Source of the DNA: Candidatus Omnitrophota bacterium
Lineage (GTDB): Bacteria; CAIJMQ01
Direction of reading: 5' to 3'
DNA: 39,366 nucleotides
Assembly: GCA_018812925.1 (NCBI GenBank)
Contig: JAHJCU010000001.1
Location: 1 to 39,366 of the forward strand
Of the stretch, positions 13,813 through 30,761 are shown piece by piece. Under the pieces are notes generated by a model. That model saw only the letters and a list, made by a program, of their open reading frames with translations. It searched no databases and was not told the origin of the DNA. The position numbers and the translations under genes were made by a program. Each line of letters starts with the position of its first letter. Within the stretch, counting starts at the first letter, position 1.

Positions 13813-16800
13813 TCAATAGTAAATAACCACCCTGGAGGGAATATCGTCAATCAGCACCTCGTCAGGCGTAAAAGATGCTATTGTTTTCCCATCGACCACA
13901 ACACTCTTAATCGGCGCTGCCAACGGCGATTTCAATACTACCTTAACAAGCGAAACCTTGTTTTTCGTCTGGATGTCAACGATTACACTGTTGTTAGATT
14001 TTTGCATCGACACACTGAATATACAATAATATGTCGGGAAATTTCTGATGGCAATCGGCTCTTTTTCCTTCAGCCAATTTTCAGGTATCCCTGCGCCGAT
14101 AACAAGCGTATTATCTGCAGTCTGTTCATATACAAACATCGTCCTTACGGCGTTTATGAAACCTGAGCCAATCCATGTATGAGGCATATCACCGATAAAT
14201 TGGGGTTCATTGGGGTCTCGCCAGACGACTTCTGCCCAGTGATTCCAGCTTGGAGGGCGACGGTCTTTAAGGAAATATTCAAGCAGCTCATTGGCTCTTT
14301 CCTTTTGTCCCATGAGCACAAACGCGCTGATAATCCGCATTTCATAAGGCGTATAATCTTTCCATTCTATTGTGCCGTCGCGCCGTTTAGTGAAATAGTC
14401 AAACCATTTATCAAAAGTATTATTCAGGAACGGTTGCGGTATGCGATTCAGTTCGCCGCAGATACCGATGCCGATAGCCGTTGATGTTGCATCAAAATCG
14501 CCCTTCTCGACACAGCCCGGAATAAAGTTAATCCCAGTGTTCGCTATTGCTTTCCGCATCGAGGCGTACAGATTCTCTTGAGATTCTTCGAGATGTTCAG
14601 CCCATTTCCCGGCAAGTTGTTTTTCGCCGAGCGCATTGGCTATTTCCACCGCGTCTTTTAGTCCTTTTATGATATAGAAGTCATCCCAGTATGAATGCAT
14701 CGGTTTGGCGGAATATCCTTCGTGGCTTATGGATTCCGGCACTAATCCGTAGCACGCCTGCTGCTCGGGAGTTCCTGAAAGATAAAGTTCTGTTTTGCGC
14801 TGGTTGTGCAGAGATTCTATGTATTCGACAGATTTAATAATTTTGGGAAACGTTTTTCGTAAATGCGCTATGTCATGCATAAATCGAAAGTATTCCGCTG
14901 TCAGGTAAATGAATTGCCCAGTGCTGTCATACTCATTAGTCGGGTCTGCTCCTCGCCAGTCAACCACACAGGGTATCTTGCCGTTTGGGTATTGATACTC
15001 GGCGTACCAGTCGATATATTCACGCACTTCCTCCGAATTCCCTGTTCGCAGAAGCGCTGTAGATATCTCAGAACCATCACGAATCCATGAACGGTCATAC
15101 GTCCTGGCGCCAGGTTCAATAGCAGCGCCGTTTCGACAAATGAGAATGTATCCGATGTTCGTCTTGAGAGTCTGAACAATCTGCTGCGCTGATGCAGGAA
15201 GTATGATATCGATTTTGTCGAGCTTGTCCTGCCATAATGTTTTTGCGTCATTGAACGTTTGCCTGACAAAAGCCATTCGCTCGTCTACAGCCACCTGCTG
15301 TAATTGCGAAATGCCATCAAACGGCGCTTCAAAAACTATGTCAATATACTGTTTCGATTTCAGGTTAAATCTGTATCCTAAAGCGGCAGAGCCAAGACCG
15401 GTTTCGTCAGAAATATTGTTGCCCGCAGGCGTTTTTAAGGAGGTTAGATATTCAGTGATATCTCCATCTGCGAATTGGGTCGCGATAAACCTGTCGGGTT
15501 TTGCGAGCAACACTATCGACCTATCATCAACAGAAACTTTGTATCCGTCAAAATTTATATTTTTTATTTTAGTTGTGCCACCAACGAGATTCAGCCACTG
15601 CGACGGCGGAAGCACCTGAAAAGGCCTTATCGCCAGAAAAAATGTGCCGCAGACTGTCCGCTCAGTCGGATTAGAAATTCGATAATTTGAGAAAATAGAA
15701 TACGCCCCATGTTTTCCTGCTGCCCATGCCGTAACTTTAAGTTCAATGTCTTTCTGCTGCCAGAGGACCGACGGAATCGGCAGATAGCCATTCTCCAGCG
15801 ACTGAGCCGTCGAAACATCAGCCCAGGTAATAAGACGGTTATTGACAAACAGAAATGGTTCAATAGAAAATCCTGCCTTGTCGATTTCGATTGCGCCCTC
15901 CTGGTTTATGAGCGCTTTTTTGCTGTTTCCTTCAGGCGGACCTATAATCGTCCAGTATGTTTGTTTTTTATCGAAATACTTCGGAAAATGTCCGCCAGGG
16001 GCATCGGCAGCAATTCTTTCATACAGTTTATTCAGTGTGGAGTCTGCATCTATCGGTATTACCTCAAGTGAACGGATGCCATAATATTTTTGGGGTCCTG
16101 AATTCATAATGAGCTTTAGGAATCTCGATTCACACTCGCCAAGATAGATATAGTCTTTCTGGCCGTTTCCATTTCGTACATGAAAGACCGGGTCGAAATT
16201 TTGACCATCGTTTGAAGTCAGCACCTGATAATCTGACGCATAGGCATTATCCCAGTTGATAACTATGCTGTCATATTCTGCGGCCTTTTTAAAATCAAAC
16301 AGAAACCACTGATTTTTGCCAGAACTGCTTCGCCATACCGTTTGAAGATTGTTGTCAATCACATTTTCCGGGCTCGCATTTTTTGTTGTAGAGGATGCGG
16401 CAACGACAGGGAGTGCGTTGTTGTCTGGTTTTTCGATAGGCTCGAAGGTAAAATTGTCTATGTATACAGAACCTTTGCCGCCTTTACCTGCTGAAACGAC
16501 AAATTCGATACGGTCGAGTTCACTAAGCGGTTTGCTGTCTGGTCCCCAGGCAAAAGAGATGTTGCGTTTCCTGATAACTGTTTTCTGCCAGTCGCGCGGA
16601 AACTCCACATCAACTTTTTTGTTCCACCATACATTGTCGGTCGGGTCCAAAAGTTTAAACTCAAAGTTATTGACCGGCGCATCAGCCCGCAGATAAAAAG
16701 TAAAACGGTAGTTGTCGGGCAGGTCAAGAGGAATATGTTTTTGAATGATTGCATAGCCTGCCCCGGCAACAAAATTAAAATCGAGCCGTATTGCGTTACC

Positions 16801-16977
16801 GCTAAAGCCTTTATCCGAGGCGATGTTGAGCGTAACGCCGTCGGAAACAATTATCTTCCAGCCCTGAATCGTTTCGAAATCATCAAGCATCTGTCCCTGA
16901 GCATTTACTTTTCCGGTTGAAAAAACTGTAAAAAATACCAGAAAAAAAATGTACAGTAATACACGATTGGCAGACAT
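13813..16977 (-). CDS. Large exported discoidin-domain protein with alpha/alpha-barrel catalytic-like region (paralog 1)
   Basis: 1054 residues. Signal peptide at residues 1-26 (ending KVNAQ). A first beta-sandwich (about 30-180) begins MLDDFETIQGWKI and includes DNVWWNKKVDVEF, like a carbohydrate-binding CBM-type fold. A discoidin/F5-8C domain follows (about 186-310; VVAASSTTKNASPENVIDN, QWFLFDFKKA). From about 340 comes a beta-rich linker, then a helical region (about 590-960) with YDRSWIRDG (about 626-634), SHEGY, HSYWDDF (about 761), GDFDATST, YTPYE, NHWAEVVW and IGDMPHTWIGSG. These suggest an (alpha/alpha)6 barrel glycosidase with acidic catalytic residues. A paralog lies at 19528-23028. 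I cannot assign a glycoside hydrolase family. AAGGAG precedes ATG 16977; the GH35 gene ends 37 bp upstream. Confidence 0.75.
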   Translation of the reverse strand: MSANRVLLYIFFLVFFTVFSTGKVNAQGQMLDDFETIQGWKIIVSDGVTLNIASDKGFSGNAIRLDFNFVAGAGYAIIQKHIPLDLPDNYRFTFYLRADAPVNNFEFKLLDPTDNVWWNKKVDVEFPRDWQKTVIRKRNISFAWGPDSKPLSELDRIEFVVSAGKGGKGSVYIDNFTFEPIEKPDNNALPVVAASSTTKNASPENVIDNNLQTVWRSSSGKNQWFLFDFKKAAEYDSIVINWDNAYASDYQVLTSNDGQNFDPVFHVRNGNGQKDYIYLGECESRFLKLIMNSGPQKYYGIRSLEVIPIDADSTLNKLYERIAADAPGGHFPKYFDKKQTYWTIIGPPEGNSKKALINQEGAIEIDKAGFSIEPFLFVNNRLITWADVSTAQSLENGYLPIPSVLWQQKDIELKVTAWAAGKHGAYSIFSNYRISNPTERTVCGTFFLAIRPFQVLPPSQWLNLVGGTTKIKNINFDGYKVSVDDRSIVLLAKPDRFIATQFADGDITEYLTSLKTPAGNNISDETGLGSAALGYRFNLKSKQYIDIVFEAPFDGISQLQQVAVDERMAFVRQTFNDAKTLWQDKLDKIDIILPASAQQIVQTLKTNIGYILICRNGAAIEPGARTYDRSWIRDGSEISTALLRTGNSEEVREYIDWYAEYQYPNGKIPCVVDWRGADPTNEYDSTGQFIYLTAEYFRFMHDIAHLRKTFPKIIKSVEYIESLHNQRKTELYLSGTPEQQACYGLVPESISHEGYSAKPMHSYWDDFYIIKGLKDAVEIANALGEKQLAGKWAEHLEESQENLYASMRKAIANTGINFIPGCVEKGDFDATSTAIGIGICGELNRIPQPFLNNTFDKWFDYFTKRRDGTIEWKDYTPYEMRIISAFVLMGQKERANELLEYFLKDRRPPSWNHWAEVVWRDPNEPQFIGDMPHTWIGSGFINAVRTMFVYEQTADNTLVIGAGIPENWLKEKEPIAIRNFPTYYCIFSVSMQKSNNSVIVDIQTKNKVSLVKVVLKSPLAAPIKSVVVDGKTIASFTPDEVLIDDIPSRVVIYY

Positions 16978-17014
16978 TATATTGAACTCCTTTTAAAAAG
17001 GTTTTTCCGCTCCG

Positions 17015-19432
17015 TCAGGATATCTTTATTGTGATTGGGTTTGCTGTTTTACTATGGGCGTAATATATTTTTACTTTTCGTGAAGATTGTTCGAATGGTA
17101 TCGATTTATCGTTTAGCAAAACGTTTTTTATTGTTCTTGTAGTGTCCAGACAAATCTGTCCGGGCGTATTCTCATTGCCGCTGACTTCTATGTTTATTCC
17201 GCAGTCAGTCGTTTCAATCTTTGTAATCTCTGAAGTTGTATTTACAATCGTAAAATTTTCCGACACCGGCATATCAAACACCAGCACAAGCCCGCTGAAA
17301 GGCGGCAGGAAAAATTCTCCACCGAAGTTTGCTTTCGTTGTAATCGCCTGATTATGGTAATTCAGCATAAAAAAGTATCCGCCGCCGTTTTTATGCAAGC
17401 GTGTGCGGGTTATAATCAAAGGATTATCGCAGTTGACCGGACCTTTGAAATTTATATCAAGACTTAAATGCTGCCATGCCTGTTTGTGAGCAGCGGCCTG
17501 ATACATAAAACCGGTTCCCAAAATCGCAGCTGAACCTTTTTGGCAATTTACTTTGATAGCGCAGGGTTTTCCGTTTCGCGTTAAAGCGATAACTTGTCCT
17601 TGTTTAGCGTTCAAAGTTTCAATATAACTGATTGCGTGTATTTCTTCTTTGGTTTCGACCCAGCGAATCATTCCATCGCTGTCAGGAAGTATCTGGTCAC
17701 TGCTTACGCCCAGACCATCGGCAAGCACAGTACAGGGATTAGCGTTAAGATCAAGTTTTGGCAGAGTCGGAAAACAAATCAAATGACCACCGCGGCGAAC
17801 ATATTCCAATAACATTTGCTGACTAGCCGCATCCATTTGTTCTGTGCAAGCTACCCATATTTGTTTGTAACGGTCGAGCTGAACCGCATCTGTGTTTGTA
17901 ATATCAACCGCATCATACTCCTGATTGTCCATAGCGAGAAGTTTGCCGAGGCTGTCAAAGAGGAGTTCATCCGTGACCATTCGCGGGTCAAGCCGACACT
18001 GAATAAACGAGCGGTCGTCGAGATTTTCGCCGATGAACAACGGGCAGGTAAATTCGCGATAATAATATGGTGGATAAAACGCCAATGCCTGCAAAGCTTT
18101 ATTTTGACTATCGCAAAGTCTTTGACCGTGGGTCTTAATCAATCTGCTGATATATTCTATTACAGGATAACTGTCGCCGGGCTCGCCTTGAATGTTGAGC
18201 GGTGTTTGCAGATAAAACGACGAATCGTAAATGCCCCAGCCGGGCGGATTTTCGCCTTCGCTAAACATATAATAATTCATAGCGACTGCGCCGTTTGCCA
18301 GACAGGCTTTATAAAACAACTCCATTTCATTTGGATAAACACGCACATTTGCTTCGCGGGTGCCTGCCTGAAGTTCAGCGACATAAGTCGGTCCGCGATT
18401 ACCCTGCAGGGCTTTTGTGAATGTGTTAATTAATCTGTCGTCGTGAAAATTGCGATATGACGGATTTTCCGGAATATGGTCAACGCCAAGCAGGATATTC
18501 GGATAGAGCCGTGACAATTTATGATACATCGACAGGCACACAGGCATACTTTTAGCTCTGCCAAAGACCCAGCCGGGCACATTATGGAATAGTGGAACAT
18601 TTACTTTGCGTTGGCGTATTTCTTCTATTAGCCAGCCGATATATTCAGCGTAAAAGTCGCGATGAAAAGTTTCCCAGTCGCGATAGGCAAGGTGGCCTTC
18701 TCTTGAAGTAACTTTGCCGACAGAAGCTTTGACTTTTGCAAAATCCGAATAGTCAGAGCCGTAGTATTTATTTAATGCGCCAATGTTTTTGTATGTGTTT
18801 TTAAGATAATCCCTGTATGATTCTAACGATGTTGCGCTGTAATCGCCACAGCCGTTAAGCCACTGGAACAGGCCGACTTCGTTGCAGACCTGCACCAAAG
18901 CTACCGGACCGCCATTGGAAAGTTGGTTTGCGGCGATAAGCGGCATTACGGCATCGTACCATCGCATTACTTTTTGTTTGTAATCGGGATGCTTTAAGCA
19001 GGTGTATTTTACCGGATACGGTCTGCCGTTTGAATCGCAGGCAAGAGCATCAGGATAATTTTCAAAAAACCATCGCGGAATTCCGTGCATAGCCAATTCA
19101 GCAAGAATGTATGGGCCGGGCTTGAGTATAAGATTCAGCTCCATTTCTTTGCAAAGTTCAATGAATCGCTCAAGGTTGAGGTTTGGAGCATACTTCCCCT
19201 TAAAATCGGGTCTGCCTTCGACCTGCTCGTGAAGCGACCACGGAACATAAGAAGATATGGTATTTAAGCCGGCTTCTTTTGCGAACTTCAAATGTTTTGT
19301 CCACAATTTGGCATCTATGCGGAAATAATGCATTTCGCCGCTTAAAACAAAATAGCTTCGTCCGTTACGCCCAAATGCCTGGTCGTTGAAATACAATCCG
19401 GAAACTTGCTGTTGATTTTTTAGCAATACCAA
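17015..19432 (-). CDS. GH35-family enzyme, probably cytoplasmic and acting on beta-1,2-glucosides
   Basis: 805 residues, no signal peptide. The GH35 TIM barrel is clear: SGEMHYFRIDAKLWTKHLKF, AKEAGLNTISSYVPWSLHEQ, LILKPGPYILAELAMHGIPR. The acid/base glutamate is E185 in ALVQVCNEVGLF. The nucleophile is probably E353 in TYVAELQAGTRE, a stretch unlike the 'E.W.GWFD' of classical beta-galactosidases. C-terminal residues about 500-805 hold a glutamine-amidotransferase-like segment (LLEYVRRGGHLICFPTLPKL) and beta domains. The start is TTG 19432 after AGAGGT. A GH35 member from Ignavibacterium has been reported as a beta-1,2-glucosyltransferase (from memory); placement beside GH144-like and phosphorylase genes makes such a role more likely than lactase. 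Beta-galactosidase remains possible. Confidence 0.85.
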   Translation of the reverse strand: MVLLKNQQQVSGLYFNDQAFGRNGRSYFVLSGEMHYFRIDAKLWTKHLKFAKEAGLNTISSYVPWSLHEQVEGRPDFKGKYAPNLNLERFIELCKEMELNLILKPGPYILAELAMHGIPRWFFENYPDALACDSNGRPYPVKYTCLKHPDYKQKVMRWYDAVMPLIAANQLSNGGPVALVQVCNEVGLFQWLNGCGDYSATSLESYRDYLKNTYKNIGALNKYYGSDYSDFAKVKASVGKVTSREGHLAYRDWETFHRDFYAEYIGWLIEEIRQRKVNVPLFHNVPGWVFGRAKSMPVCLSMYHKLSRLYPNILLGVDHIPENPSYRNFHDDRLINTFTKALQGNRGPTYVAELQAGTREANVRVYPNEMELFYKACLANGAVAMNYYMFSEGENPPGWGIYDSSFYLQTPLNIQGEPGDSYPVIEYISRLIKTHGQRLCDSQNKALQALAFYPPYYYREFTCPLFIGENLDDRSFIQCRLDPRMVTDELLFDSLGKLLAMDNQEYDAVDITNTDAVQLDRYKQIWVACTEQMDAASQQMLLEYVRRGGHLICFPTLPKLDLNANPCTVLADGLGVSSDQILPDSDGMIRWVETKEEIHAISYIETLNAKQGQVIALTRNGKPCAIKVNCQKGSAAILGTGFMYQAAAHKQAWQHLSLDINFKGPVNCDNPLIITRTRLHKNGGGYFFMLNYHNQAITTKANFGGEFFLPPFSGLVLVFDMPVSENFTIVNTTSEITKIETTDCGINIEVSGNENTPGQICLDTTRTIKNVLLNDKSIPFEQSSRKVKIYYAHSKTANPITIKIS

Positions 19433-19472
19433 TTTTCTACCTCTATTCTCTATATAATAAAATTCAATTTTA

Positions 19473-19500
19473 CCCCGTTAGAGATTTATTTCTAATGGGG
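19473..19500 (-). terminator. Intercistronic hairpin after the 1166-residue protein gene
   Basis: CCCCATTAGA and TCTAACGGGG on the minus strand pair over 10 bp (one G-T pair) around an 8-nt loop, followed by a short TAAAATTG stretch rather than a strong T-tract. It lies between the gene ending at 19528 and the GH35 start at 19432. It may partly terminate transcription or stabilise the upstream message, giving less of the downstream genes. Confidence 0.5.
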
Positions 19501-19527
19501 CTTACTAAACGGTTTTTCTGAAAATTT

Positions 19528-22500
19528 TTATTGGAGTATTAGTTTTACACCGTCCGGAACCACAAAACCATTTGGCGGCTGCTGCGAACATCTCAATTTG
19601 AGAATCACCTGACCGTTTTTATTACGTTCTAACGTGTAGCTAATCGGCCCCCACCATGTTTGCAGATTACTGACTGATACGCCTTTGTCGAGCCATCTAT
19701 CATAAACGCCTGCTGCCAGTACCAATCTGCCGCGCTCTTCGTAAACAAGCATGTCACGGATAGCGTTAATCAAGCCGGCTCCAACCCAAGTATGCGGCAT
19801 ATCGCCTATGTAGCTTGGCGTGCGTAAATCGCCGTGAACAACTTCACCCATATGGTTCCAGTTGACTGGTCGAACGCCGTCTTCCACAAAGAAATCAAGC
19901 AACATTTGCGCATCTGCAATTCGGCCAAGTCGGAGCATAGCTGAAATGTTGCGCACTTCATAGGGTGTATACAGACTTCGTGTGCCAACTGGTTGAGCAG
20001 CGCGGAATTTCGACTCTTCCATATACTTGTCATAAGTTGCCTTGAGCGCATCAGCCGGCAGTGTATCACGTTCATCAGCTACCATTATTCCAATAGAGGT
20101 TGAAGTCGGGTCGAAATCGCCAAGCTCCGCACAAGCGGGGATTGTAGCCAAACTATCACGAGTGCGAACTCGCTCTATAGATTCCAACACCGATTTGCGC
20201 ATATCCGTTTCAAATTTAGCAAGCCATTCGGCGTCTTCCTTATGACCGAGTCGCAATGCAATTGCTTGAGCATCCTGAAGGCCCTTTAGAGCAAAAAAGT
20301 CGTCCCAGTAGCTGTGTCGAGGAGGGTCAATGTAGCCTTCATGACTGACTGATTCGGGTAGGATACCTTCGTATTCCGTGCCTTTGTATTTTTCCGTCAG
20401 CCGTTGACTTCGCAGGTTCTCCATATATTTCATAACAGCTTTGATTTTAGGCCAGCATAATTTTGCGATTTCGTCATCATCGGTCAGTTCCACAACCTGA
20501 CGAACTAAAAATACATATTCGCCAAACGAGTCGTACTCCTGCCAGTTATCATTTGCCATCTGGCCAGTTTTTGTATTTACCAGGAATGGAACAAATCCGT
20601 CGTCTTTGATAAGACCTGTAAACCATTTCAGGTATGTAGCGCCGTTATCAACCAGGCCGAACCGCATCATAGCCGTTGCGCTTATAGCTCCATCGCGTAT
20701 CCACGAGCTGTTGTAATTGCGTGAACCAGGTTGAGTTGCAGGGCCATCGGCGTTAATCAAAAGATATGCAAGATTGGAGCGGATTAAGTTTGCGAGTTTT
20801 TTATCGGGAATGTCGATGTTCCAGTTGCCGATTGTTTCCTTCCACAGTTTTATGGATTTTACCATTTCTTCACTGAAGAATTTTTCACCATCCTTGGGTG
20901 CTGTAATATTTGCACCTTCTTCATTCGGATAAATGGCAAGAATGCTTTTTGTTTCGCCGGCTTTGAGTTTGTAATCGTAACGCACGCCGGCTGAAATAAT
21001 GCCGTCGGGCGAAGAAATGGAATTGCCGTCAGTGCGATTTCCAAGCAGGCACTCTATTACATCAACCGAATCTGTTGTCGGCCTTTGGTTATACGTAGAT
21101 ACAAAAACAGGTGCCGAACAAAGCCGCATGGCTTCCTGGTCGTTGAGAATCAATGTGTTTGTTTTATCCTGCCATTGGGCTTGTTTTATTTGTGAATATC
21201 CGCCATGCTGCCAGGGTGGATTTACCTGCAGCGGACGGGCAGCCAGCAGAAGTGAAATATCCCGTGTTTGTTTAGAAGTGTTTGAAAGTTTATAAAGAAC
21301 TACCGTTGTGTCGGGAGCAATTGTGTTAGCCGTAATATTCATTTCAAGACCATTGCCAAGCCATTTTACATTTGGAATCGGAATCCATTCTTCGGCAAGC
21401 GATTGACTTGTTTGGAAGTTTTTTGCACTAAGCAGTTTTCCATCGACCATTAGAGCAGGCGTTACACTAAAATTGCGCAAACCGGATTCGATTTTGCCGT
21501 ATTCTTCCAGCAGAGATTCATTGAAGCTGCCAGGCAAACCCGTAACAGTCCAGAATGCCTGCAGGCGGCTTAGCCAATTTGGCAAAAGACCATCCGGCAG
21601 ACGCTGTGCAAGCATTTCAAAATGTCTGACAGGAGTCCAGCCCTCAGAAGTACCCTTTACTTGAATATCAGCAATACGAACCGGCTCTGTTAGTTTCGCT
21701 GCGAAGACAAAACGCAACTTGTCGGCATATACCGGCGCAAAGAACAAATCTTCCACCTGGTTGTTAAAGCTCGCTTTTTTGTTCATTACCATTTGCCACT
21801 TATTTGCTTCTTCTGAGAATGCTTCGATTTTGCAGGCAGGAGTTTGGGCTTTAGTCCAGTCGATTTGAAGTCCGCCAACGCCGAATTTTCGCGGAAAGGT
21901 AAACTCGACGACAGTTTCTTTCCCGGGGTTTGATGCAGATTGCCAATAGGTCTCCGTCTTGCCATCCAGTATCGCTTCGGATGACATGCCTTTTGCAGTT
22001 GAAGAAGCGCTGGCAAAAATCTCATCTTCCGGCCCGAGAATTCCTACTTCCCAGAGTGAATAGCCCCAGCCAGTGCCACGTTTATGGCCGAGCATTTTAA
22101 TTGCTTTGGCTTTGTGAGGACCAAAATATATTTCATCGACTCCGCCATCGCCGAATTTTATTCTACTTGCTGTAATCCATTTGTCATCGGGTTGGAGTAA
22201 TTGTATTTCGTAATCTCTGCCATAGGCAGCTTCCCAGTGCAATTTGAGCCCTACCAGATCTATCGGGCTGTTAAAGTCTATTTGCAGCCACTCGTTATCA
22301 GTGAATTCGCTGGACCAGCGAGTATCCATCCTGCCGTCGAGTGCCATTATCGGCAGAGTGCCGCTGTTTTTTTGACCGGAACTGGCGGTGATAGATGTGA
22401 TTGGCAGAGATGGTGCGGATGCACCTGCAGCTGTAATTTTCTTTTCGCTTAACGCTTCAATTTTGTCGAGGATAATCGTGCCATTATCACCCACATAACT

Positions 22501-23028
22501 AATTACTAACGCAACTTCTCTTACGGCTGCTGCATCAATTTGTGTTTTTGCATCTTCAACATCAAATTCAATACAAGCCCAGCTTCCAGCGGGGGTAATT
22601 TCGGAACCAGTTAAATAAACTCCCTTGTTGCCATCGTGAAGCCACATATTCAGTGTTACACTGCCGGCATCGGCAGGAACCGCTGCAAAAATACGTATTT
22701 TCTGCCAGACCAAAATGTTAATCGGTGAAACGGGAAAATATTTTAGTTCAACACCATCGCTGTCTTTTCCCCATTTCAGCATTACGGCTTGATTAGTTTC
22801 TATTGCAGGGTTTTCGCTTTGGGCAGGCGCCTGAATCAGCTCTGAAGAACCGCTGATATTGACACGCTTCCATTTTTGCAGGCATTGCGACTCGTTGAAA
22901 TCCTCGAATGCATACCATTGTTGGGCAAATAAATCAGCAGTTTCACTATCTTTCACAGGCGCACACGAGGTTGCAATAAAGATTGTTAGTAATGCTGACA
23001 ATAAAATAAGAATTGGTAATCGTTTCAT
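19528..23028 (-). CDS. Large exported (likely lipoprotein) discoidin-domain protein with alpha/alpha-barrel catalytic-like region (paralog 2)
   Basis: 1166 residues from ATG 23028; the frame extends to 23091 but only MKRLPILILLSALLTIFIAT followed by SCAP makes a signal peptide, with Cys as a likely lipidation site. Residues about 40-200 are a carbohydrate-binding-like beta-sandwich (WYAFEDFNESQCLQKWKRV). Two discoidin-like domains follow (about 215-335 and 340-465; ITASSGQKNSGTLPIMALDG, ASSTAKGMSSEAILDGKTET). The catalytic-like part shows YNSSWIRDG (about 771-779), SHEGY, HSYWDDF (about 906), GDFDPTST, YTPYE, NHMGEVVH and IGDMPHTWVGAG, all shared with the 13813 paralog. CAGGAAAAC precedes the start. 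First gene of the minus-strand unit, with a consensus-like promoter. Probably an outer-membrane or periplasmic glycosidase; family and substrate are unknown. Confidence 0.75.
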   Translation of the reverse strand: MKRLPILILLSALLTIFIATSCAPVKDSETADLFAQQWYAFEDFNESQCLQKWKRVNISGSSELIQAPAQSENPAIETNQAVMLKWGKDSDGVELKYFPVSPINILVWQKIRIFAAVPADAGSVTLNMWLHDGNKGVYLTGSEITPAGSWACIEFDVEDAKTQIDAAAVREVALVISYVGDNGTIILDKIEALSEKKITAAGASAPSLPITSITASSGQKNSGTLPIMALDGRMDTRWSSEFTDNEWLQIDFNSPIDLVGLKLHWEAAYGRDYEIQLLQPDDKWITASRIKFGDGGVDEIYFGPHKAKAIKMLGHKRGTGWGYSLWEVGILGPEDEIFASASSTAKGMSSEAILDGKTETYWQSASNPGKETVVEFTFPRKFGVGGLQIDWTKAQTPACKIEAFSEEANKWQMVMNKKASFNNQVEDLFFAPVYADKLRFVFAAKLTEPVRIADIQVKGTSEGWTPVRHFEMLAQRLPDGLLPNWLSRLQAFWTVTGLPGSFNESLLEEYGKIESGLRNFSVTPALMVDGKLLSAKNFQTSQSLAEEWIPIPNVKWLGNGLEMNITANTIAPDTTVVLYKLSNTSKQTRDISLLLAARPLQVNPPWQHGGYSQIKQAQWQDKTNTLILNDQEAMRLCSAPVFVSTYNQRPTTDSVDVIECLLGNRTDGNSISSPDGIISAGVRYDYKLKAGETKSILAIYPNEEGANITAPKDGEKFFSEEMVKSIKLWKETIGNWNIDIPDKKLANLIRSNLAYLLINADGPATQPGSRNYNSSWIRDGAISATAMMRFGLVDNGATYLKWFTGLIKDDGFVPFLVNTKTGQMANDNWQEYDSFGEYVFLVRQVVELTDDDEIAKLCWPKIKAVMKYMENLRSQRLTEKYKGTEYEGILPESVSHEGYIDPPRHSYWDDFFALKGLQDAQAIALRLGHKEDAEWLAKFETDMRKSVLESIERVRTRDSLATIPACAELGDFDPTSTSIGIMVADERDTLPADALKATYDKYMEESKFRAAQPVGTRSLYTPYEVRNISAMLRLGRIADAQMLLDFFVEDGVRPVNWNHMGEVVHGDLRTPSYIGDMPHTWVGAGLINAIRDMLVYEERGRLVLAAGVYDRWLDKGVSVSNLQTWWGPISYTLERNKNGQVILKLRCSQQPPNGFVVPDGVKLILQ

Positions 23029-23060
23029 AGTTTGTTTTCCTGTATAGCAGACTTTGAGTT

Positions 23061-23086
23061 TAATAACATTTCTGCGTGTTATATTA
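23061..23086. promoter_or_regulatory. Candidate operator overlapping the minus-strand -10
   Basis: TAATAACA (23061-23068) and TGTTATATTA (23077-23086) form an inverted repeat around 8 bp. It overlaps the -10 element and start site of the minus-strand promoter, where a LacI-type repressor would act. The AACA...TGTT arms resemble the palindromes at 23297 and 23449. No experimental basis; inferred from symmetry and position. Confidence 0.35.
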
Positions 23087-23110
23087 TCCAATATGTCTTT
23101 GAAATGTCAA
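23081..23110 (-). promoter_or_regulatory. Promoter of the minus-strand carbohydrate operon
   Basis: On the minus strand TTGACA (complement of 23105-23110) and TAATAT (complement of 23081-23086) are separated by 18 bp, giving a perfect -35 and near-consensus -10 about 50 bp before ATG 23028. It faces away from the lacI promoters, so the intergenic region is divergent. Confidence 0.75.
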
Positions 23111-23501: not shown

Positions 23502-24569
23502 ATGGTAACAGAAACAGGCAGTATAACCATTCATAATGTTGCAAAAGTTGCGGGGGTTTCAATTTCCACAGTATCGCGCGTTGTAAACGGTTTAGATCGG
23601 GTTGCGCCTGATACGCGACATAAGGTAAAAACGGCCATTCGCCGTTTAGACTTTCACCCTAACAGCCGGGCACAGGCGCTGAGCAGAAAACGGACCGATA
23701 CAATTAGTCTGATAGTTCCGGATTTCGAGGGCCAGTATTTTTCAATGCTGATGGAAGGCGCACATGAAGAAGCACAAGCCAATGGCGTTCACATTATGGT
23801 TCTCAAGGCAAAAAGCTCGGAGGAAAAAATCGAGGCTGTTACCCGCTTGTGTTCGCAGGGACGAACCGATGGCGTGATTTTAATGCTTTCTGACTTATAC
23901 GGTGATGTCCTCAAAGGCATCGGCCATATTAACAGCCCCTTGGTAATTCTCGACCAGGATGTTCACTCCTGGCGGCTGGATAATATACTTTTGGATAACA
24001 GGATTGGAGCTTTTGAAGCAACAAGGCATTTCATAGATACCCATAACGTTGATGATGTATTTTTCCTCGGCGGTTCTGAAGACAACGTTGATACTACTGC
24101 ACGAGCCCGTGGTTTTGCTGATGCACTTAAGTCAATAGGATTGAATGCTAAAGGCAGACAGTTTTTCGGCAATAGTTATAGCTATGACGAGGGTTATCAT
24201 CTTGCGGAAGAAAAAATATTTCCCTTGATTAATCCTGAGAAACATTATGGTGTTGTGGCGGCTAATGACGATATTGCCTGCAGTATCATTGATGCCTTGA
24301 TGGATAAAGGAATTAGGGTTCCTGAGCAGGTTGGGGTAACCGGTTTTGATGATTCAGATATGGCAATACATCGCAGACTAAAGATTACTACAATGCGTAT
24401 CCCAACCAAAGAAATTGGTCGTGTTGCGGTTAGAATGATTCTGAACCGCTTGTCAGGCCGGGTTTCAGAACCGGCGAAAGTTGTATTAAAAGCACGGCTC
24501 ATAGTACGTGATTCGTGCGGCTGTGGCAGGCACGATAACTCAATACCCGGAGATAAACATGGTAAGTAG
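23502..24569 (+). CDS. LacI-family transcriptional regulator
   Basis: 355 residues. The N-terminal helix-turn-helix and hinge helix are typical: TIHNVAKVAGVSISTVSRVV followed by NG (residues about 8-29), then FHPNSRAQALSRKRTDTISL. The periplasmic-binding-protein-like core spans about 62-345 with the dimer-core sequences DGVILML, VVAANDDIAC and VGVTGFDDSDMAIHRRLKIT. It should repress or activate the divergent carbohydrate units and be relieved by an oligosaccharide or its breakdown product. GAGGAT precedes ATG 23502. Its 3' end overlaps the GH144-like gene by 11 bp, so the two are translated from one message. The Cys-containing tail RDSCGCGRHD resembles a common LacI/GalR C-terminal pattern. 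Confidence 0.93.
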   Translation: MVTETGSITIHNVAKVAGVSISTVSRVVNGLDRVAPDTRHKVKTAIRRLDFHPNSRAQALSRKRTDTISLIVPDFEGQYFSMLMEGAHEEAQANGVHIMVLKAKSSEEKIEAVTRLCSQGRTDGVILMLSDLYGDVLKGIGHINSPLVILDQDVHSWRLDNILLDNRIGAFEATRHFIDTHNVDDVFFLGGSEDNVDTTARARGFADALKSIGLNAKGRQFFGNSYSYDEGYHLAEEKIFPLINPEKHYGVVAANDDIACSIIDALMDKGIRVPEQVGVTGFDDSDMAIHRRLKITTMRIPTKEIGRVAVRMILNRLSGRVSEPAKVVLKARLIVRDSCGCGRHDNSIPGDKHGK

Positions 24570-25932
24570 AAGATATACCAGCTTTATATTTTTTATTGTG
24601 ACCGTTTTGTTTTTTAGCGGGTCCTGCTTTGCTTTATCTTCTAAGGTTAACCGGATAGTCTTCACTGCCGAAAACGAGTGTTTGCTGGAGGAGATCAGCA
24701 GTGCTTCCTTTCAATTTTTCTGGAAGGAGGCCCATCCTGTTTCCGGCCTTGTGCGGGATAAAACAGGCAAAGATTTTTGCAGTGTGGCATCTTTAGGCTT
24801 TGGTTTGGCTGCACTGCCGATAGGCGTTGAACGTGGCTACGTATCCCGCCAAGCGGCACAGGATCGTGCGCTAAAAGCGCTTAGAACAATTAAAAAATCA
24901 AATGCCCAGCACAATGGCATGTATTGCCATTTTATCGATTTTGCCACCGGAAATACAACATCTCTTAGCTACGAGAGTAGCGCATCTTCAATAGATACGG
25001 CTCTTATGGTAGCAGGTGCAATTGTTGCCGGCGAATATTTCAAAGGTGAAGTTAAAGAACTTGCCGAAGATATTTTTGCCGGCGTGAACTGGCAGAGCTT
25101 TGTAGATTCCCAACAAAGAGGCCAGGCATACCAACAAAAAGGCCAGGTGTATATGGCCTGGAAGGCAGACGACCCGAATAATATGAGTGATTCAGGCCAA
25201 TTCGAGAGACAGACTTGGGATTGGTACACCGACGAAACGCTTCTGATAGTTTTGCTCGGTCAGGCATCACCTGTTGAAAAGTATCGACTAAAGCCGGAGA
25301 CAATGACTAACTGGAATCGGCCGGTCGGAAAATATAAAAACGGCCAGCCGTTTATCTATACGTATCCTGGGACATTGTTCACTTATATGTTCGCGCACTG
25401 TTTTTATGATTTCAAAAAAACAGGCAAAGATTCGCTCGGCATTGACTGGTTTGAAAACACTCGCAGAGCAGTGATTGCCAATCGCGATTGGTGCCGCGAC
25501 AATAGTGATAAATTCCCTACCTATGGATTAAATCGTTGGGGGATTACAGCCGGCGTAGGGCCGGGGGACGAATATGTTGTACTCGGCCATCAGCCTCGCG
25601 GAGCAAGCGAAAATCAGGGCGAATATGGGACGCTCCATCCTTATGGAGCGGGTATGTCAGTTCCATTTGCACCAAACGATGCAATTAAAGCGCTTAAAGA
25701 AATGCGAAATTTGGAAGTAGCAGGAAAACCAGTATGGCAATCTGTCGAGCAGGGCGGATACGGCTTTTGGGATGGTTTCAACATTAAGGAAGATTGGGTT
25801 TCGGACCAGGTAATCGGCATTGCTCAAGGACCAATGCTTTTGCTGATAGAAAATGCTCGCAGCGGACTTATATGGAAACTTATGATGCAAAATGAATATG
25901 TAAAACAGGGTCTTAAACGGGCCGGGTTTTAA
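24559..25932 (+). CDS. Secreted GH144-like endo-beta-1,2-glucanase
   Basis: 457 residues from ATG 24559, supported by GGAG just upstream and by the signal peptide this start gives (MVSRRYTSFIFFIVTVLFF, then SGSCFA); the frame itself is open further back. The glucoamylase-like barrel is well matched: SASFQFFWKEAHPVSGLVRD, SVASLGFGLAALPIGVERGY, SSIDTALMVAGAIVAGEYF, DWYTDETLLIVLLGQASP (from residue 221), TLHPYGAGMSVPFAPNDAIK and GFWDGFNIKEDWVSDQVIGI. GH144 enzymes cut beta-1,2-glucan into sophorooligosaccharides. Length matches the Chitinophaga-type enzyme. It overlaps lacI and lies 51 bp before the phosphorylase gene. Other PF10091-type activities cannot be excluded by eye, but the adjacent phosphorylase favours beta-1,2-glucan. 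Confidence 0.85.
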   Translation: MVSRRYTSFIFFIVTVLFFSGSCFALSSKVNRIVFTAENECLLEEISSASFQFFWKEAHPVSGLVRDKTGKDFCSVASLGFGLAALPIGVERGYVSRQAAQDRALKALRTIKKSNAQHNGMYCHFIDFATGNTTSLSYESSASSIDTALMVAGAIVAGEYFKGEVKELAEDIFAGVNWQSFVDSQQRGQAYQQKGQVYMAWKADDPNNMSDSGQFERQTWDWYTDETLLIVLLGQASPVEKYRLKPETMTNWNRPVGKYKNGQPFIYTYPGTLFTYMFAHCFYDFKKTGKDSLGIDWFENTRRAVIANRDWCRDNSDKFPTYGLNRWGITAGVGPGDEYVVLGHQPRGASENQGEYGTLHPYGAGMSVPFAPNDAIKALKEMRNLEVAGKPVWQSVEQGGYGFWDGFNIKEDWVSDQVIGIAQGPMLLLIENARSGLIWKLMMQNEYVKQGLKRAGF

Positions 25933-25983
25933 TCAGGTGGCATTAAAAAAGATTGATGAAAAATAATTTTGAGAGGTGGTAAA

Positions 25984-28900
25984 TTGGCGGATATTGCAAA
26001 AGTATATGAAATAAAGAATTCTTCGGGATTGAAATTTTCCATTTTCGAAAATGGCGTTGTAAAAAATATAGAGCAGAATTTGATACAGATAAATCTTACG
26101 GATGATTCGCTGCTGGAAAAGGGCTGCTCCAATCTGTATCTTAGAAAAAAAACAAATGGCAAAATTTCTGCTGTGCCGCTTCTTGGGCCGGCGAGTAGTG
26201 CGAAGAAATTTATCGATGAAAATAATTACCAGTTTAAAGGTGAGTTTGAAGGAATAAAATTTTCCGGTAGATTGCTGCTTACAGAAAAAAGCGGTTGTTG
26301 GTTGTGGAATGTGCAATTGCAAAATACGAACAAAGATGAGCAGGACGTTGACCTTGTTTATGTTCAGGATGTTGGGCTTTCCTGCGCCGATGGAAATGAA
26401 AAAAACGAATCCTACATAAGTCAGTACACGGATTATAAGCCGCTCAATCACAAAGAGATTGGCTATGTTGTTTGCTGCCGTCAAAACGAACACGGGCCGG
26501 GCTGCGTGCCCTGGCTGGCGTTGGGTTCAATTGGCAAAACGAAAAGTTTTTCAACAGATGGTATGCAGTTTTTCGGCACAAGCTACAGAGCAACGGGTCT
26601 GGCTGAGGCACTTTCGCAATCCGAATTTGGCGGATTGTCTCAACAGGAACTTGGTTTGATTGCTTTGCAAGCCGAATCAATGATTTTGAAATCTGGACAG
26701 GAAAAAGATTTTGGTTTTTTTGGTATTTTCCACAAAGACCATCCAGCGGCTACTACGCAAGATGATTTAAAATTGATTGAGCCGGATTTACAGGATATTA
26801 AAAAACTCGCCCAGAAACCATGGCAAGATAATTGTGCTTACGTTGAATCGGTTGGCAGCTTATTTTCGCAGTCGCCGTTATTTGCCTCTGAAGACCTTAC
26901 CGATGAGGAACTGAACAAACTGTTCGGCTCCGATCGCAGGCATAGCGAGTTTTGCAATGGACAGTTACTTTCATTTTTTTATGGCGATGACAATCGTCAT
27001 GTAGTGTTGCGCCGCAAAGAGCTTATTGTGCAGCGGCATCACGGCCATATAATGAAAACCGGCAATAGCTTAACGCCGGATGATGCGATAATGTGCTGCA
27101 CGTCTTATATGTTCGGCGTTTTCCAATCTCATATTGCTCAGGGTAATGTTAGTTTCAATCGCTTTCTGACTGTAAATACAAATTCCCTTAATATACCGCG
27201 TCATACGGGACAGCGGATTTTTGTGCGGCAAAACGAGCGGTATTACCAGCTGGGAATACCATCGGCTTTCGAGATGTCGCTTAATCAATGCAGATGGATA
27301 TACAAAAAGGGCGATTTGATGTTCGAGGTTCTCTCTTTAGCATCACAGGATTCTCCGGAAATTACGCTGAAGCTTCGGATTCTTCAGGGACAGGAACCGG
27401 AATGGTTGATTTCAAGTAATCTCACAGCTGAACACAACTGGCAGATAGTAAGCGAAGAGAAAAACAGCTTAAAAATCCTGCCTGGTGAAAAGAGCGAGCT
27501 GGCTCGTATGTTTCCCGGTGGTTTTTTTGGTGTCCGATTGGAAAATACAAAGGGTGTTAAACAAACAGGAGGTGATGAACTGCTTTTTGCCGACGGTAAA
27601 AGCAGGGGACTAAGTTTTCTTGTGATGACTCTGGCTCAAACGAAACAGTTCACAATGCGGATTGAAGGCAGGCTTGCCCCCTCAGCTTCCTGTGGAACAG
27701 AAGCAGAAACTGAGAAAGCTATTTCCTTCAGCTTCGATTTGTCGTCGGTTAAAGCAAATACGGCGATAAGTCCAATAAGCGAGATTCTGCCATGGTTTGA
27801 ACAAAACGCCCAAATCCATTATCTTGTATCGCATGGCCTGGAGCAGTACGGCGGAGCGGCATGGGGGACTCGGGATACATGTCAGGGTCCGATAGAAATG
27901 CTGCTGGCTCAGGGGCATTATTCTGCTGTGAGGAAGATACTTTCCGTTATCTTCTCGAATCAAAATACCGATGGCAACTGGTCGCAATGGTGGATGTTTG
28001 ATGGCTATAAAAAAATCAGAGCAGGCGAATCACACGGCGATGTTATTTTCTGGCCGGTCCTGGCGATGAGCGAATACATCTGTGCATCAAGTGATTACGA
28101 TTTTCTAAATGAATCGCTGCCATATTATGATGGCAAATCCGAAAGTGAAACTGTCATCGAACATATTAATCGCATAATCAAACATATAAAAGATACACGT
28201 TTTGTCAGCGGCACAAACTTGGTAAACTACAGTAATGGCGATTGGAACGATTCAATGCAGCCGGCTAATCCGGAACTTAAAAAAAGATTGATTAGCTCGT
28301 GGACTGTATGTCTGAGCTATCAGGCCTTCAGGTCTTTTGGAAAAGTATGCCAACAGAGCGGTCGCAACGAGATAGCCGAAGAAATGGGCAGATTGTGCGA
28401 TGCGATTCAAAAAGATTTCAGCCGTTTGCTGATTAAAGATGGTGTGGTAGCCGGATTCGGTCTTGTCGGCGATAAAGATAAAATTGATTTACTGCTGCAT
28501 CCTTCCGACAGCACAACAGGCATTCATTATCGCCTGCTGCCTATGACTCGCGGGATACTAAGCGGTATATTTACACCCGAGCAGGCAAAAGCACATGCTG
28601 AAATTATAGAGAAACATTTGAAAGGTCCTGATGGCGCAAGGTTGATGGACAAACCGGTTAAATACAACGGCGGATTACAAACATATTTCAAGCGAGCAGA
28701 AAGCTCGTCCTTCTTCGGACGTGAAATCGGTCTTATGTACACCCATGCTCATTTACGATATGCTGAGGCAATGGCTCGGTTGGGACATGCAAAATCTTTC
28801 ATAAAAGCGTTGCGTCAGGTTATACCGATAGACATACAGCAGATAATACCTCAGGCTGATATACGGCAGTCTAATTGTTATTACACCAGTTCGGACGGGG

Positions 28901-29313
28901 ATTTTGCAAGTCGTTACGAGGTCAACGACCATTACGAAGATTTGCTCGCCGGCAAAGTTGCACTAAAAGGCGGTTGGAGAGTGTATTCCAGCGGCCCCGG
29001 GATATTTGTTAAATTTATAATCGCTTATCTGCTGGGAATTCGTTATAACTGCGGCCATACTATTTTCGACCCTGTCTTATCCAAAGAGTTTGACGGTCTT
29101 GCCGCTCAGATGAAATTGCATGGTCACAATGTGAAATTGGTTTATTCTGTCAGCGGCAAAAACGATGGAGTAAAGAAAATTGAGATTAACGGCGCAGGCG
29201 TTGAATTTGAGAGGGAATCCAATCCATACCGCACAGGTGGCGCAAGCATTGAAGATTCCAAATTGAAAATGGCTCTTAATAAAAATAGCAACACGATAAA
29301 AATCAGTTTTTAA
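25984..29313 (+). CDS. GH94 1,2-beta-oligoglucan phosphorylase
   Basis: 1109 residues, close to the Listeria-type sophorooligosaccharide phosphorylase (about 1110) and well above cellobiose phosphorylase (about 800) and below cyclic glucan synthase (about 2800). No signal peptide, so cytoplasmic. The barrel carries YGGAAWGTRDTCQGPIEMLL (about 620-640), TDGNWSQWWMFDG, and SNGDWNDSMQPANPELK with the general-acid GDWND at residues 752-756. The C-terminal part shows YTSSDGDFASRYEVNDHYED and KGGWRVYSSGPGIF for phosphate and substrate contacts. It would cleave (Glc)n + Pi to (Glc)n-1 + alpha-glucose 1-phosphate. The start is TTG 25984, chosen because GAGAGGTGG is correctly placed; an upstream in-frame TTG at 25969 has none. 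It is 32 bp before the symporter gene. Confidence 0.88.
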   Translation: MADIAKVYEIKNSSGLKFSIFENGVVKNIEQNLIQINLTDDSLLEKGCSNLYLRKKTNGKISAVPLLGPASSAKKFIDENNYQFKGEFEGIKFSGRLLLTEKSGCWLWNVQLQNTNKDEQDVDLVYVQDVGLSCADGNEKNESYISQYTDYKPLNHKEIGYVVCCRQNEHGPGCVPWLALGSIGKTKSFSTDGMQFFGTSYRATGLAEALSQSEFGGLSQQELGLIALQAESMILKSGQEKDFGFFGIFHKDHPAATTQDDLKLIEPDLQDIKKLAQKPWQDNCAYVESVGSLFSQSPLFASEDLTDEELNKLFGSDRRHSEFCNGQLLSFFYGDDNRHVVLRRKELIVQRHHGHIMKTGNSLTPDDAIMCCTSYMFGVFQSHIAQGNVSFNRFLTVNTNSLNIPRHTGQRIFVRQNERYYQLGIPSAFEMSLNQCRWIYKKGDLMFEVLSLASQDSPEITLKLRILQGQEPEWLISSNLTAEHNWQIVSEEKNSLKILPGEKSELARMFPGGFFGVRLENTKGVKQTGGDELLFADGKSRGLSFLVMTLAQTKQFTMRIEGRLAPSASCGTEAETEKAISFSFDLSSVKANTAISPISEILPWFEQNAQIHYLVSHGLEQYGGAAWGTRDTCQGPIEMLLAQGHYSAVRKILSVIFSNQNTDGNWSQWWMFDGYKKIRAGESHGDVIFWPVLAMSEYICASSDYDFLNESLPYYDGKSESETVIEHINRIIKHIKDTRFVSGTNLVNYSNGDWNDSMQPANPELKKRLISSWTVCLSYQAFRSFGKVCQQSGRNEIAEEMGRLCDAIQKDFSRLLIKDGVVAGFGLVGDKDKIDLLLHPSDSTTGIHYRLLPMTRGILSGIFTPEQAKAHAEIIEKHLKGPDGARLMDKPVKYNGGLQTYFKRAESSSFFGREIGLMYTHAHLRYAEAMARLGHAKSFIKALRQVIPIDIQQIIPQADIRQSNCYYTSSDGDFASRYEVNDHYEDLLAGKVALKGGWRVYSSGPGIFVKFIIAYLLGIRYNCGHTIFDPVLSKEFDGLAAQMKLHGHNVKLVYSVSGKNDGVKKIEINGAGVEFERESNPYRTGGASIEDSKLKMALNKNSNTIKISF

Positions 29314-29345: not shown

Positions 29346-30761
29346 ATGGATATAAAACAGCATCACATTACCGCCAAGGAAGACAGACTTCCTTTTATCC
29401 AAAAGTTTGGCTATGGAATCGGCGCCGTGGTCACAATCGTATCAGTTAATTCTTTGATGCAGCTAACCGGCCTTTTTTATATTGATTTATTGAAAATCAG
29501 CCCGATTCTTCTCGGGTTTGCAGCAGCGATACATAGATTATGGGATGCGGTCACAGACCCTCTGGTTGGAAATCTTTCCGATAACACTCGCTCCAGATTC
29601 GGCAGGCGACTTCCGTATATCCTGATAGGAGGTATTCTGGTTGGTATTACATTTGCGATGATATTCATGGTGCCCCGAGGCTGGAGTACAAATGCGATGT
29701 TCGGTTATTTCTTAGTGACGTCATTGATTTTTTATACTGCTGTTACTATTTACGGCGTGCCTCATGGCGCATTAGGTCTTGAAATGACTAACGATTACAA
29801 TGAAAGAACACGGCTATTTGCATATGCCAGTTTCATTGGAAATATAGCTGCCATTGCATCGCCCTGGATGTATTATTTCGCAAACAGGTCTATGTTTAAA
29901 GACCCAATCGAAGGCATGAAGTGGGTATGTATATGGATGGGGCTGATTCTGATTATTGCAGCAATCATATGTGTTCTTACATGTAAAGAAACTAGGACTG
30001 AACAGGTTAAAAAACAAAAGAAAATGGCATTCTGGGAAAGTTTTAAAATCACCTATAAGAATCGCACATTTATGATGCTGGTAATTGTTTTCGTGCTGGT
30101 AATAATCGGTTTCCAGTTCGTTATGGGTTTTAGTAATTTTATAATGATGTATTTTGTGTATTCCGGTGATAAAGTTGCTGCGTCCGGAATGATGGGATGG
30201 ATGGGAACAATCTGGGCGGTAACTGCCCTTATCGGTGTATTCCCCATGATGTGGGTATCTTCCCGTCTGGGCAAAACAAAGACGGTTATATTCTCCTTTG
30301 CAATTCTCACAGTTGCGCAACTTTTAAAAATCGTATGTTATAACCAGACATATCCTTGGCTAGCGGTGATACCTACCATTCTATTATCTTGGGGAATGGT
30401 AATGTGTTTCACGCTTGTCAATGCTATGAACGCTGATATCTGCGATGAGGATGAGCTTGTAACAGGAAAAAGAAGAGAGGGCAATTATTATGCGGTCTAC
30501 GGATGGTGGTGGAAGGTAGGGGTTTCTATAGCATGTGTCGTTAGTGGATATCTTCTAAAAGTAACAGGATATAATGCGGATTTTGCCCATCAGACAGCTT
30601 CCACCATGTTTTGGCTTAGATACTGTGAGATTGGGATACCTACAGTGTTATGCATAGTGGCAATACTAATTCTAACCAGATATCCTCTTACTGAAAATCG
30701 AGCTTATGAGGTTAAAGCGTTACTTGAAGAGCGAAGAAAAGCTCAGGCCGTCACTCCTTAA
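29346..30761 (+). CDS. GPH-family sugar:cation symporter (MFS)
   Basis: 471 residues with about 12 hydrophobic segments. The GPH signature is plain near residues 55-85: AAAIHRLWDAVTDPLVGNLS and DNTRSRFGRRLPYIL. A second family block is NADICDEDELVTGKRREGNY...YGWWWKVGVSIA. It should import oligosaccharides across the inner membrane with H+ or Na+. It is 32 bp after the phosphorylase with AAGGAAGGAGAGAG as ribosome-binding site, hence the likely importer of the sophorooligosaccharides; no TonB/SusCD outer-membrane system is seen. The substrate is inferred from context only. Confidence 0.92.
   Translation: MDIKQHHITAKEDRLPFIQKFGYGIGAVVTIVSVNSLMQLTGLFYIDLLKISPILLGFAAAIHRLWDAVTDPLVGNLSDNTRSRFGRRLPYILIGGILVGITFAMIFMVPRGWSTNAMFGYFLVTSLIFYTAVTIYGVPHGALGLEMTNDYNERTRLFAYASFIGNIAAIASPWMYYFANRSMFKDPIEGMKWVCIWMGLILIIAAIICVLTCKETRTEQVKKQKKMAFWESFKITYKNRTFMMLVIVFVLVIIGFQFVMGFSNFIMMYFVYSGDKVAASGMMGWMGTIWAVTALIGVFPMMWVSSRLGKTKTVIFSFAILTVAQLLKIVCYNQTYPWLAVIPTILLSWGMVMCFTLVNAMNADICDEDELVTGKRREGNYYAVYGWWWKVGVSIACVVSGYLLKVTGYNADFAHQTASTMFWLRYCEIGIPTVLCIVAILILTRYPLTENRAYEVKALLEERRKAQAVTP

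Follow-up and report, generated by a model that had tools for sequence, protein, structure and literature searches.

What two giant discoidin proteins do amid genes for β-1,2-glucan breakdown is the question raised by this locus. β-1,2-Glucans are bacterial glycans of osmoregulation, symbiosis, and virulence, and the enzymes that break them down have been found only since 2014. The window, meaning the whole stretch of 39,366 nucleotides that was analysed, carries two genes of interest, both on the reverse strand. The first, hereafter called DiscA (13813-16977), encodes a predicted secreted GH15-like protein of 1054 amino acids. The second family member, DiscB (19528-23028), encodes 1166 amino acids when read from the ATG at 23028; an alternative start at an upstream TTG gives an open reading frame of 19528-23091 (reverse strand) and 1187 amino acids. 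The N-terminus of DiscB reads as lipoprotein-like (LLTIFIATSC). A GH35-like gene (17015-19432, reverse strand) separates the two, which are 31% identical overall and 39% over the barrel described below. An earlier note on this DNA had listed a series of seven motifs common to both proteins, and all seven were found in the same order in each: SWIRDG, SHEGY, SYWDDF, GDFDA/PTST, YTPYE, NHWAEVV/NHMGEVV, and IGDMPHTW.

DiscA comprises a signal peptide, a CBM-like sandwich, one discoidin domain, a supersandwich, an (α/α)6 barrel, and a C-terminal β domain. The discoidin domain (F5_F8_type_C, residues 193-299; 16081-16401, reverse strand) matched PF00754 with an E value of 5e-16, and its nearest solved relatives are CBM32 domains of glucanase/chitosanase enzymes. 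Two such domains are present in DiscB (F5_F8_type_C, E = 8e-24), in agreement with the one or two discoidin domains read earlier from the sequence. The DiscA supersandwich (about residues 339-552; 15322-15963, reverse strand) and barrel (about residues 591-948; 14134-15207, reverse strand) were delimited from an AlphaFold2 model and comparison with PDB structures, as was the DiscB barrel (19741-20817, reverse strand). The helical barrel that had been anticipated was thus seen in the AlphaFold2 models of both proteins. The region earlier called a beta linker forms a full supersandwich domain, as in GH15 and GH94 enzymes.

The surroundings had been called a beta-1,2-glucan locus, and this description proved much better founded than was first seen, the neighbours being truly related to a 1,2-β-oligoglucan phosphorylase (SOGP), GH144, a β-1,2-glucosyltransferase, and GH189. 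The intervening GH35-like gene product is a relative of the β-1,2-glucosyltransferase IaSGT (7vkw, E = 4e-156). Upstream of DiscB, on the forward strand, lie genes for a LacI-family regulator (23502-24569; profile matches), a GH144-type β-1,2-glucanase (24508-25932; relatives 8xul XCC2207 and 5gzh CpSGL), the GH94 enzyme SOGP (25969-29313; 5h3z, E = 3e-196), and a GPH-family sugar:cation symporter (29346-30761; profile matches). On the other side of DiscA is a gene for a stand-alone secreted relative of GH189 (DUF3131/PF10091; 11981-13762, reverse strand; 8wy1, E = 1e-20). This protein is kin to the cyclisation/transferase (transglycosylation) domain of cyclic β-1,2-glucan synthase, here found outside any synthase, and may possibly act as an endo-glucanase or a transferase.

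In Pfam, NCBIfam, and the PDB sequences, no characterised family gave a sequence match that both reached its threshold and covered the barrel. Matches to Pfam and NCBIfam were partial and mostly below cut-offs. DiscA scored 13.2 bits against PF00723 (GH15), for which the gathering score is 22, and other members scored individually reached up to 20.7 bits, all under that cut-off; the best of 32 members had an E value of 5e-5, so a few members may touch it. The NCBIfam oligosaccharide amylase profile aligned to the barrel with an E value of 1e-8, yet far under its own cut-off. Against PF17389 (Bac_rhamnosid6H, GH78; cut-off 24.5), DiscA scored 26.0 bits as an isolated barrel and 23.5 as a whole protein, and DiscB 22.9 bits, with matches spanning about half of the profile. 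PDB searches with phmmer and with profiles returned discoidin matches only, or E values of at least 0.06 over the barrel; with the family profile against PDB sequences, no solved structure matched over the barrel, the best being a GH15 enzyme at E = 0.063. A profile-profile comparison, the kind of check proposed in the earlier note, was carried out against GH15, GH78, SOGP, and GH144, and GH15 emerged as the closest sequenced family. The hhalign E value, which in all these comparisons refers to a single pair and is uncalibrated, was 3.4e-15 for GH15 over 360 columns and the whole barrel (reversed control 0.69), and 4e-10 for GH78 (reversed control 0.36). No sequence relation to GH94 or to GH144 was detected by hhalign, with probabilities of 0.1% for SOGP and 0.0% for GH144, the one family compared within clan GH-S.

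The AlphaFold2 model of DiscA, predicted from an input of 43 family sequences, had a mean pLDDT of 92.4 and a pTM of 0.88; that of DiscB had a mean pLDDT of 78.1, with the barrel mostly above 90. In comparison with the PDB, the supersandwich and barrel of DiscA matched enzymes of GH15, GH94, GH65, GH116, and GH78. The top VIA-align match was the GH15 enzyme dextran dextrinase (Z 33.0, 3.8 Å over 557 residues), followed by isomaltose glucohydrolase (Z 30.9) and a bacterial glucoamylase (Z 30.5), where differences in Z of less than 1 count as ties. DiscB retrieved the same set of enzymes, with isomaltose glucohydrolase (GH15) the best at Z 32.2. The structure prediction that had been suggested as a check therefore places the barrel model closest to GH15, with GH94 also similar in fold. 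GH144, GH162, and GH189 were absent from the best 50 structural matches listed for DiscA, and they may still be similar in fold. Function is not readable from the fold alone. The matches to GH15 enzymes are at 11-13% identity, which is uninformative on the linkage cleaved, and the fold is silent on anomer specificity because α- and β-acting enzymes share it.

Residue conservation was counted over 133 catalytic domains, using DiscA numbering. E753, E916, D765, D702, and the pair R633-D634 were near-invariant, and W631, R633, D634, D684, E753, D829, and E916 fell on GH15 columns W, R, D, D, E, D, and E that are invariant in 17 of 17 sequences. The WxRD motif of the GH15 −1 subsite is thereby represented by W631, R633, and D634. 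GH15 enzymes hold the −1 glucose at O4/O6 through the RD pair and carry the catalytic acid in the α5→α6 loop and the base in the α11→α12 loop (PMC12446779). The corresponding candidates here are R633-D634 of SWIRDG (15076-15081, reverse strand), near-invariant and a putative −1 subsite clamp; E753 of SHEGY (14719-14721, reverse strand), the putative general acid in the α5→α6 loop, conserved in 129 of 133 domains; and E916 of NHxxEVV (14230-14232, reverse strand), the putative general base in the α11→α12 loop, conserved in 130 of 133. Both glutamates precede helices that match α6 and α12 in the DiscA model, the helices having been counted by hand. The earlier suggestion that conserved acidic residues could be catalytic is thus plausible, with E753 and E916 on the acid and base columns of GH15. 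At four further positions the family has near-invariant E682, D765, E879, and D930 where GH15 has Q, S, N/S/A, and N; the pocket has thus been reworked and may bind another ligand. In GH78 the general-acid glutamate lies in the loop preceding the second barrel helix; column 628, near that position, holds E, D, N, Q, or T, and the alignment of this loop to GH78 is uncertain. The earlier note had found the motif series attachable to no established GH family. This holds insofar as no family covered the barrel above its threshold, but it was too strong a statement, since the GH15 hhalign E value of 3.4e-15 and the aligned acid/base glutamate pair and WxRD motif identify the barrel as a remote GH15 relative.

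A collection from genome contigs by sequence similarity alone yielded at least 567 relatives, of which 80 loci were kept, and this number, with the near-invariant residues across the 133 catalytic domains, argues that the motifs are not due to chance. Among the 41 loci of at least 20 kb, GH144 or SOGP was present in 40, GH144 lay immediately 5' on the same strand in 33, the exact order GH144-DiscA-GPH-GH35-SOGP occurred in 24, and GH3 was found in 13. An evenly drawn sample of 296 genomes of Bacteroidota, the phylum of a Bacteroidales MAG in the set (L030), contained the barrel in 18. All 18 of these had GH144, versus 7 of 20 barrel-negative genomes (Fisher p 1.6e-5), and coordinate comparison placed it on the barrel's contig within about 10 kb in 18 of 18. 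SOGP_N was nearly missing (1 of 18 positives), so the universal partner appears to be GH144 and not SOGP. In an even sample of Verrucomicrobiota the family was present in 22 of 337 genomes; SOGP occurred in 15 of 22 positives versus 0 of 20 negatives (Fisher p 1.9e-6), and in 12 of those 15 it shared a contig with the family gene, within about 12 kb. Both p values are indicative, because the negatives were the first listed genomes and related genomes are non-independent. In a tree of the 133 barrels, members with GH144/SOGP partners fell into several distinct clades, the DiscB clade among them. The GPH symporter at 11413-13479 of L030, like those of similar Bacteroidota loci, is about 690 amino acids long, some 200 above the usual length, with a hydrophilic coil-like insert ahead of the last membrane helix.

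Individual loci showed the same partnership in several arrangements. On a Croceibacterium plasmid (Proteobacteria) a TonB receptor gene, GH144, and the discoidin gene occur together, the latter two overlapping by 4 bases, and on a Methylosinus plasmid (Proteobacteria) SOGP adjoins the family gene. The Xanthomonas sacchari plasmid NZ_CP010410.1 (L237, L240) carries a LacI regulator, a TonB receptor, GH144, a sugar ABC transporter, and then the family gene, whose reading frame is broken by a frameshift in that record and which adjoins the Entner-Doudoroff genes zwf-glk-pgl-edd. GH144 and the DiscA copy are the only glycosidases annotated or detected in this cluster, and its position beside glk-zwf-pgl-edd points to glucose. 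GH144 (736 bits) and the DiscA layout (698 bits) are joined in a single open reading frame (L022, 6947-11392), in which the DiscA signal peptide is missing at the junction. Some members, for example L058, L173-L175, and L177, had no β-1,2-glucan neighbour within the stretch read, and no family match was found in phage records. L067 and L182 at first seemed to hold GPH-DiscA fusions, but these were rejected, as the reading frames gave no transporter profile match. One protein of 1868 amino acids (L170, 3275-8881) contains two tandem family barrels, which belong to different clades, and has SOGP adjacent. A closely similar locus was seen in a MAG from Lake Pavin assigned to Phycisphaerae (L004), with 87% identity in the DiscA barrel, 78% in GH35, and 80% in LacI; DiscB is missing there between GH35 and LacI. 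Its presence under that assignment points to horizontal transfer, or else to a bin placed in the wrong group.

Since the family neighbours known β-1,2-glucan breakdown enzymes across several phyla, it very probably represents a missing step in the bacterial use of this glucan. DiscA and DiscB are best explained as GH15-like exo-glucosidases of β-1,2-glucan breakdown, with a probability of about 0.62 that does not extend to the bond cleaved. Members of the family are probably secreted, exo-acting, inverting glucosidases. As their relatives suggest, GH144 and the GH189-like protein would cut the polymer outside the cytoplasm. The discoidin and CBM-like domains may keep DiscA and DiscB on the glucan, and the barrel pocket would accept a glucose at the non-reducing end. 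In the alignment-based placement, R633-D634 would grip O4/O6, E753 would serve as the general acid and E916 as the base, and glucose would be released with inversion. The GPH symporter would import small products, to be consumed by the predicted cytoplasmic SOGP and β-1,2-glucosyltransferase. For the bond itself, β-1,2 is tentatively favoured, the second and doubtful choice is an α linkage or a branch point, for example α-1,6, and transglycosylation or something else accounts for the rest. The very constant GH144 neighbourhood and the X. sacchari cluster with its glucose catabolism genes speak for β-1,2; the retained −1 residues of GH15 type are an awkward fit.

An α-glucosidase or debranching enzyme is an unlikely alternative to that reading; it would remove residues attached by α-1,6 or by other linkages than β-1,2, which would block full use of natural β-1,2-glucans. 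One such target would be the α-1,6 joint of the cyclic glucans of Xanthomonas, Ralstonia, and Rhodobacter, once GH144 has opened the ring. To our knowledge, all characterised GH15 enzymes act on α-glucosides, and the kinship to GH15, the α-glucoside-type acid/base pair, and the −1 site are retained here. Enzymes that act on α-1,6 bonds are among the best structural matches, although matches at 11-13% identity carry no linkage information. SOGP requires oligosaccharides, and a periplasmic saccharifier of β-1,2 bonds would take its substrate; an enzyme for α bonds would avoid this competition, and redundancy with SOGP and GH3 in shared loci as well. α-1,6-Cyclised β-1,2-glucans do exist and are produced by several bacteria (PMC11228985), which counts for the same alternative. 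However, the GH144 neighbourhood is more constant across phyla than would be expected for a linkage found in some glucans only.

Less probable still is a transglycosylase or retaining enzyme in place of a hydrolase, similar to dextran dextrinase or the GH35 β-1,2-glucosyltransferase. Dextran dextrinase, the top structural match of DiscA, is a retaining transglucosidase related to GH15, and one transglycosylase, the GH35-like protein, is already encoded in the locus. The Gly-Glu dyad that occurs in the dextran dextrinase cluster (PMC12446779) is present in DiscB, but just 3 of the 133 members have it, and most carry Ala-Glu instead. That the proteins belong to GH78 (α-L-rhamnosidase) or another six-hairpin family, act on an unrelated glycan, and sit in this locus incidentally is very improbable. 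Partial Bac_rhamnosid6H matches, some over the cut-off (26.0, 31.5, and 27.7 versus 24.5 bits), and the hhalign E value of 4e-10 point that way, but the match spans only about half of the profile, GH15 is better in profile comparison, and the association with GH144/SOGP is repeated in several phyla.

The preferred GH15-like reading sets the family beside several known systems. GH15 itself (glucoamylase, glucodextranase, isomaltose glucohydrolase, and dextran dextrinase) shares the supersandwich, linker helices, and (α/α)6 barrel at about 12-19% identity; unlike GH15, the DiscA/DiscB family has CBM-like and discoidin fusions and β-1,2-glucan gene neighbours. GH94, including SOGP, occurs in the same loci and has the same supersandwich-barrel fold, with no profile-profile signal. 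In inverting phosphorylases phosphate takes the place of the base glutamate, and unlike GH94 the family has a glutamate at the base position. GH144, GH162, GH189, and GH192-194 (the β-1,2-glucanase clan and GH189) have the substrate context and an (α/α)6 barrel in common with the family, which differs in its supersandwich and GH15-type motifs. The GH35 enzyme IaSGT (IALB_1185) was likewise traced as an odd enzyme within an SGL cluster, but it is a TIM-barrel enzyme of unrelated fold.

No description of the family was found in the openly accessible literature, and annotated members are named only 'discoidin domain-containing protein' at NCBI. A new GH number is likely for the family, set apart here by Pfam, NCBIfam, PDB, and pairwise hhalign comparisons. 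The chances are about even that it forms a GH family of new specificity, one that would act on β-1,2 bonds with a GH15-type site, or clear the α-1,6 joint of α-1,6-cyclised β-1,2-glucans, in either case as the first to do so. In environmental bacteria, few genes accompany GH144 and SOGP as constantly as those of the DiscA/DiscB family. Knowing what the family does would close a gap in this pathway, and might lead to a new CAZy family or to a new boundary for GH15.
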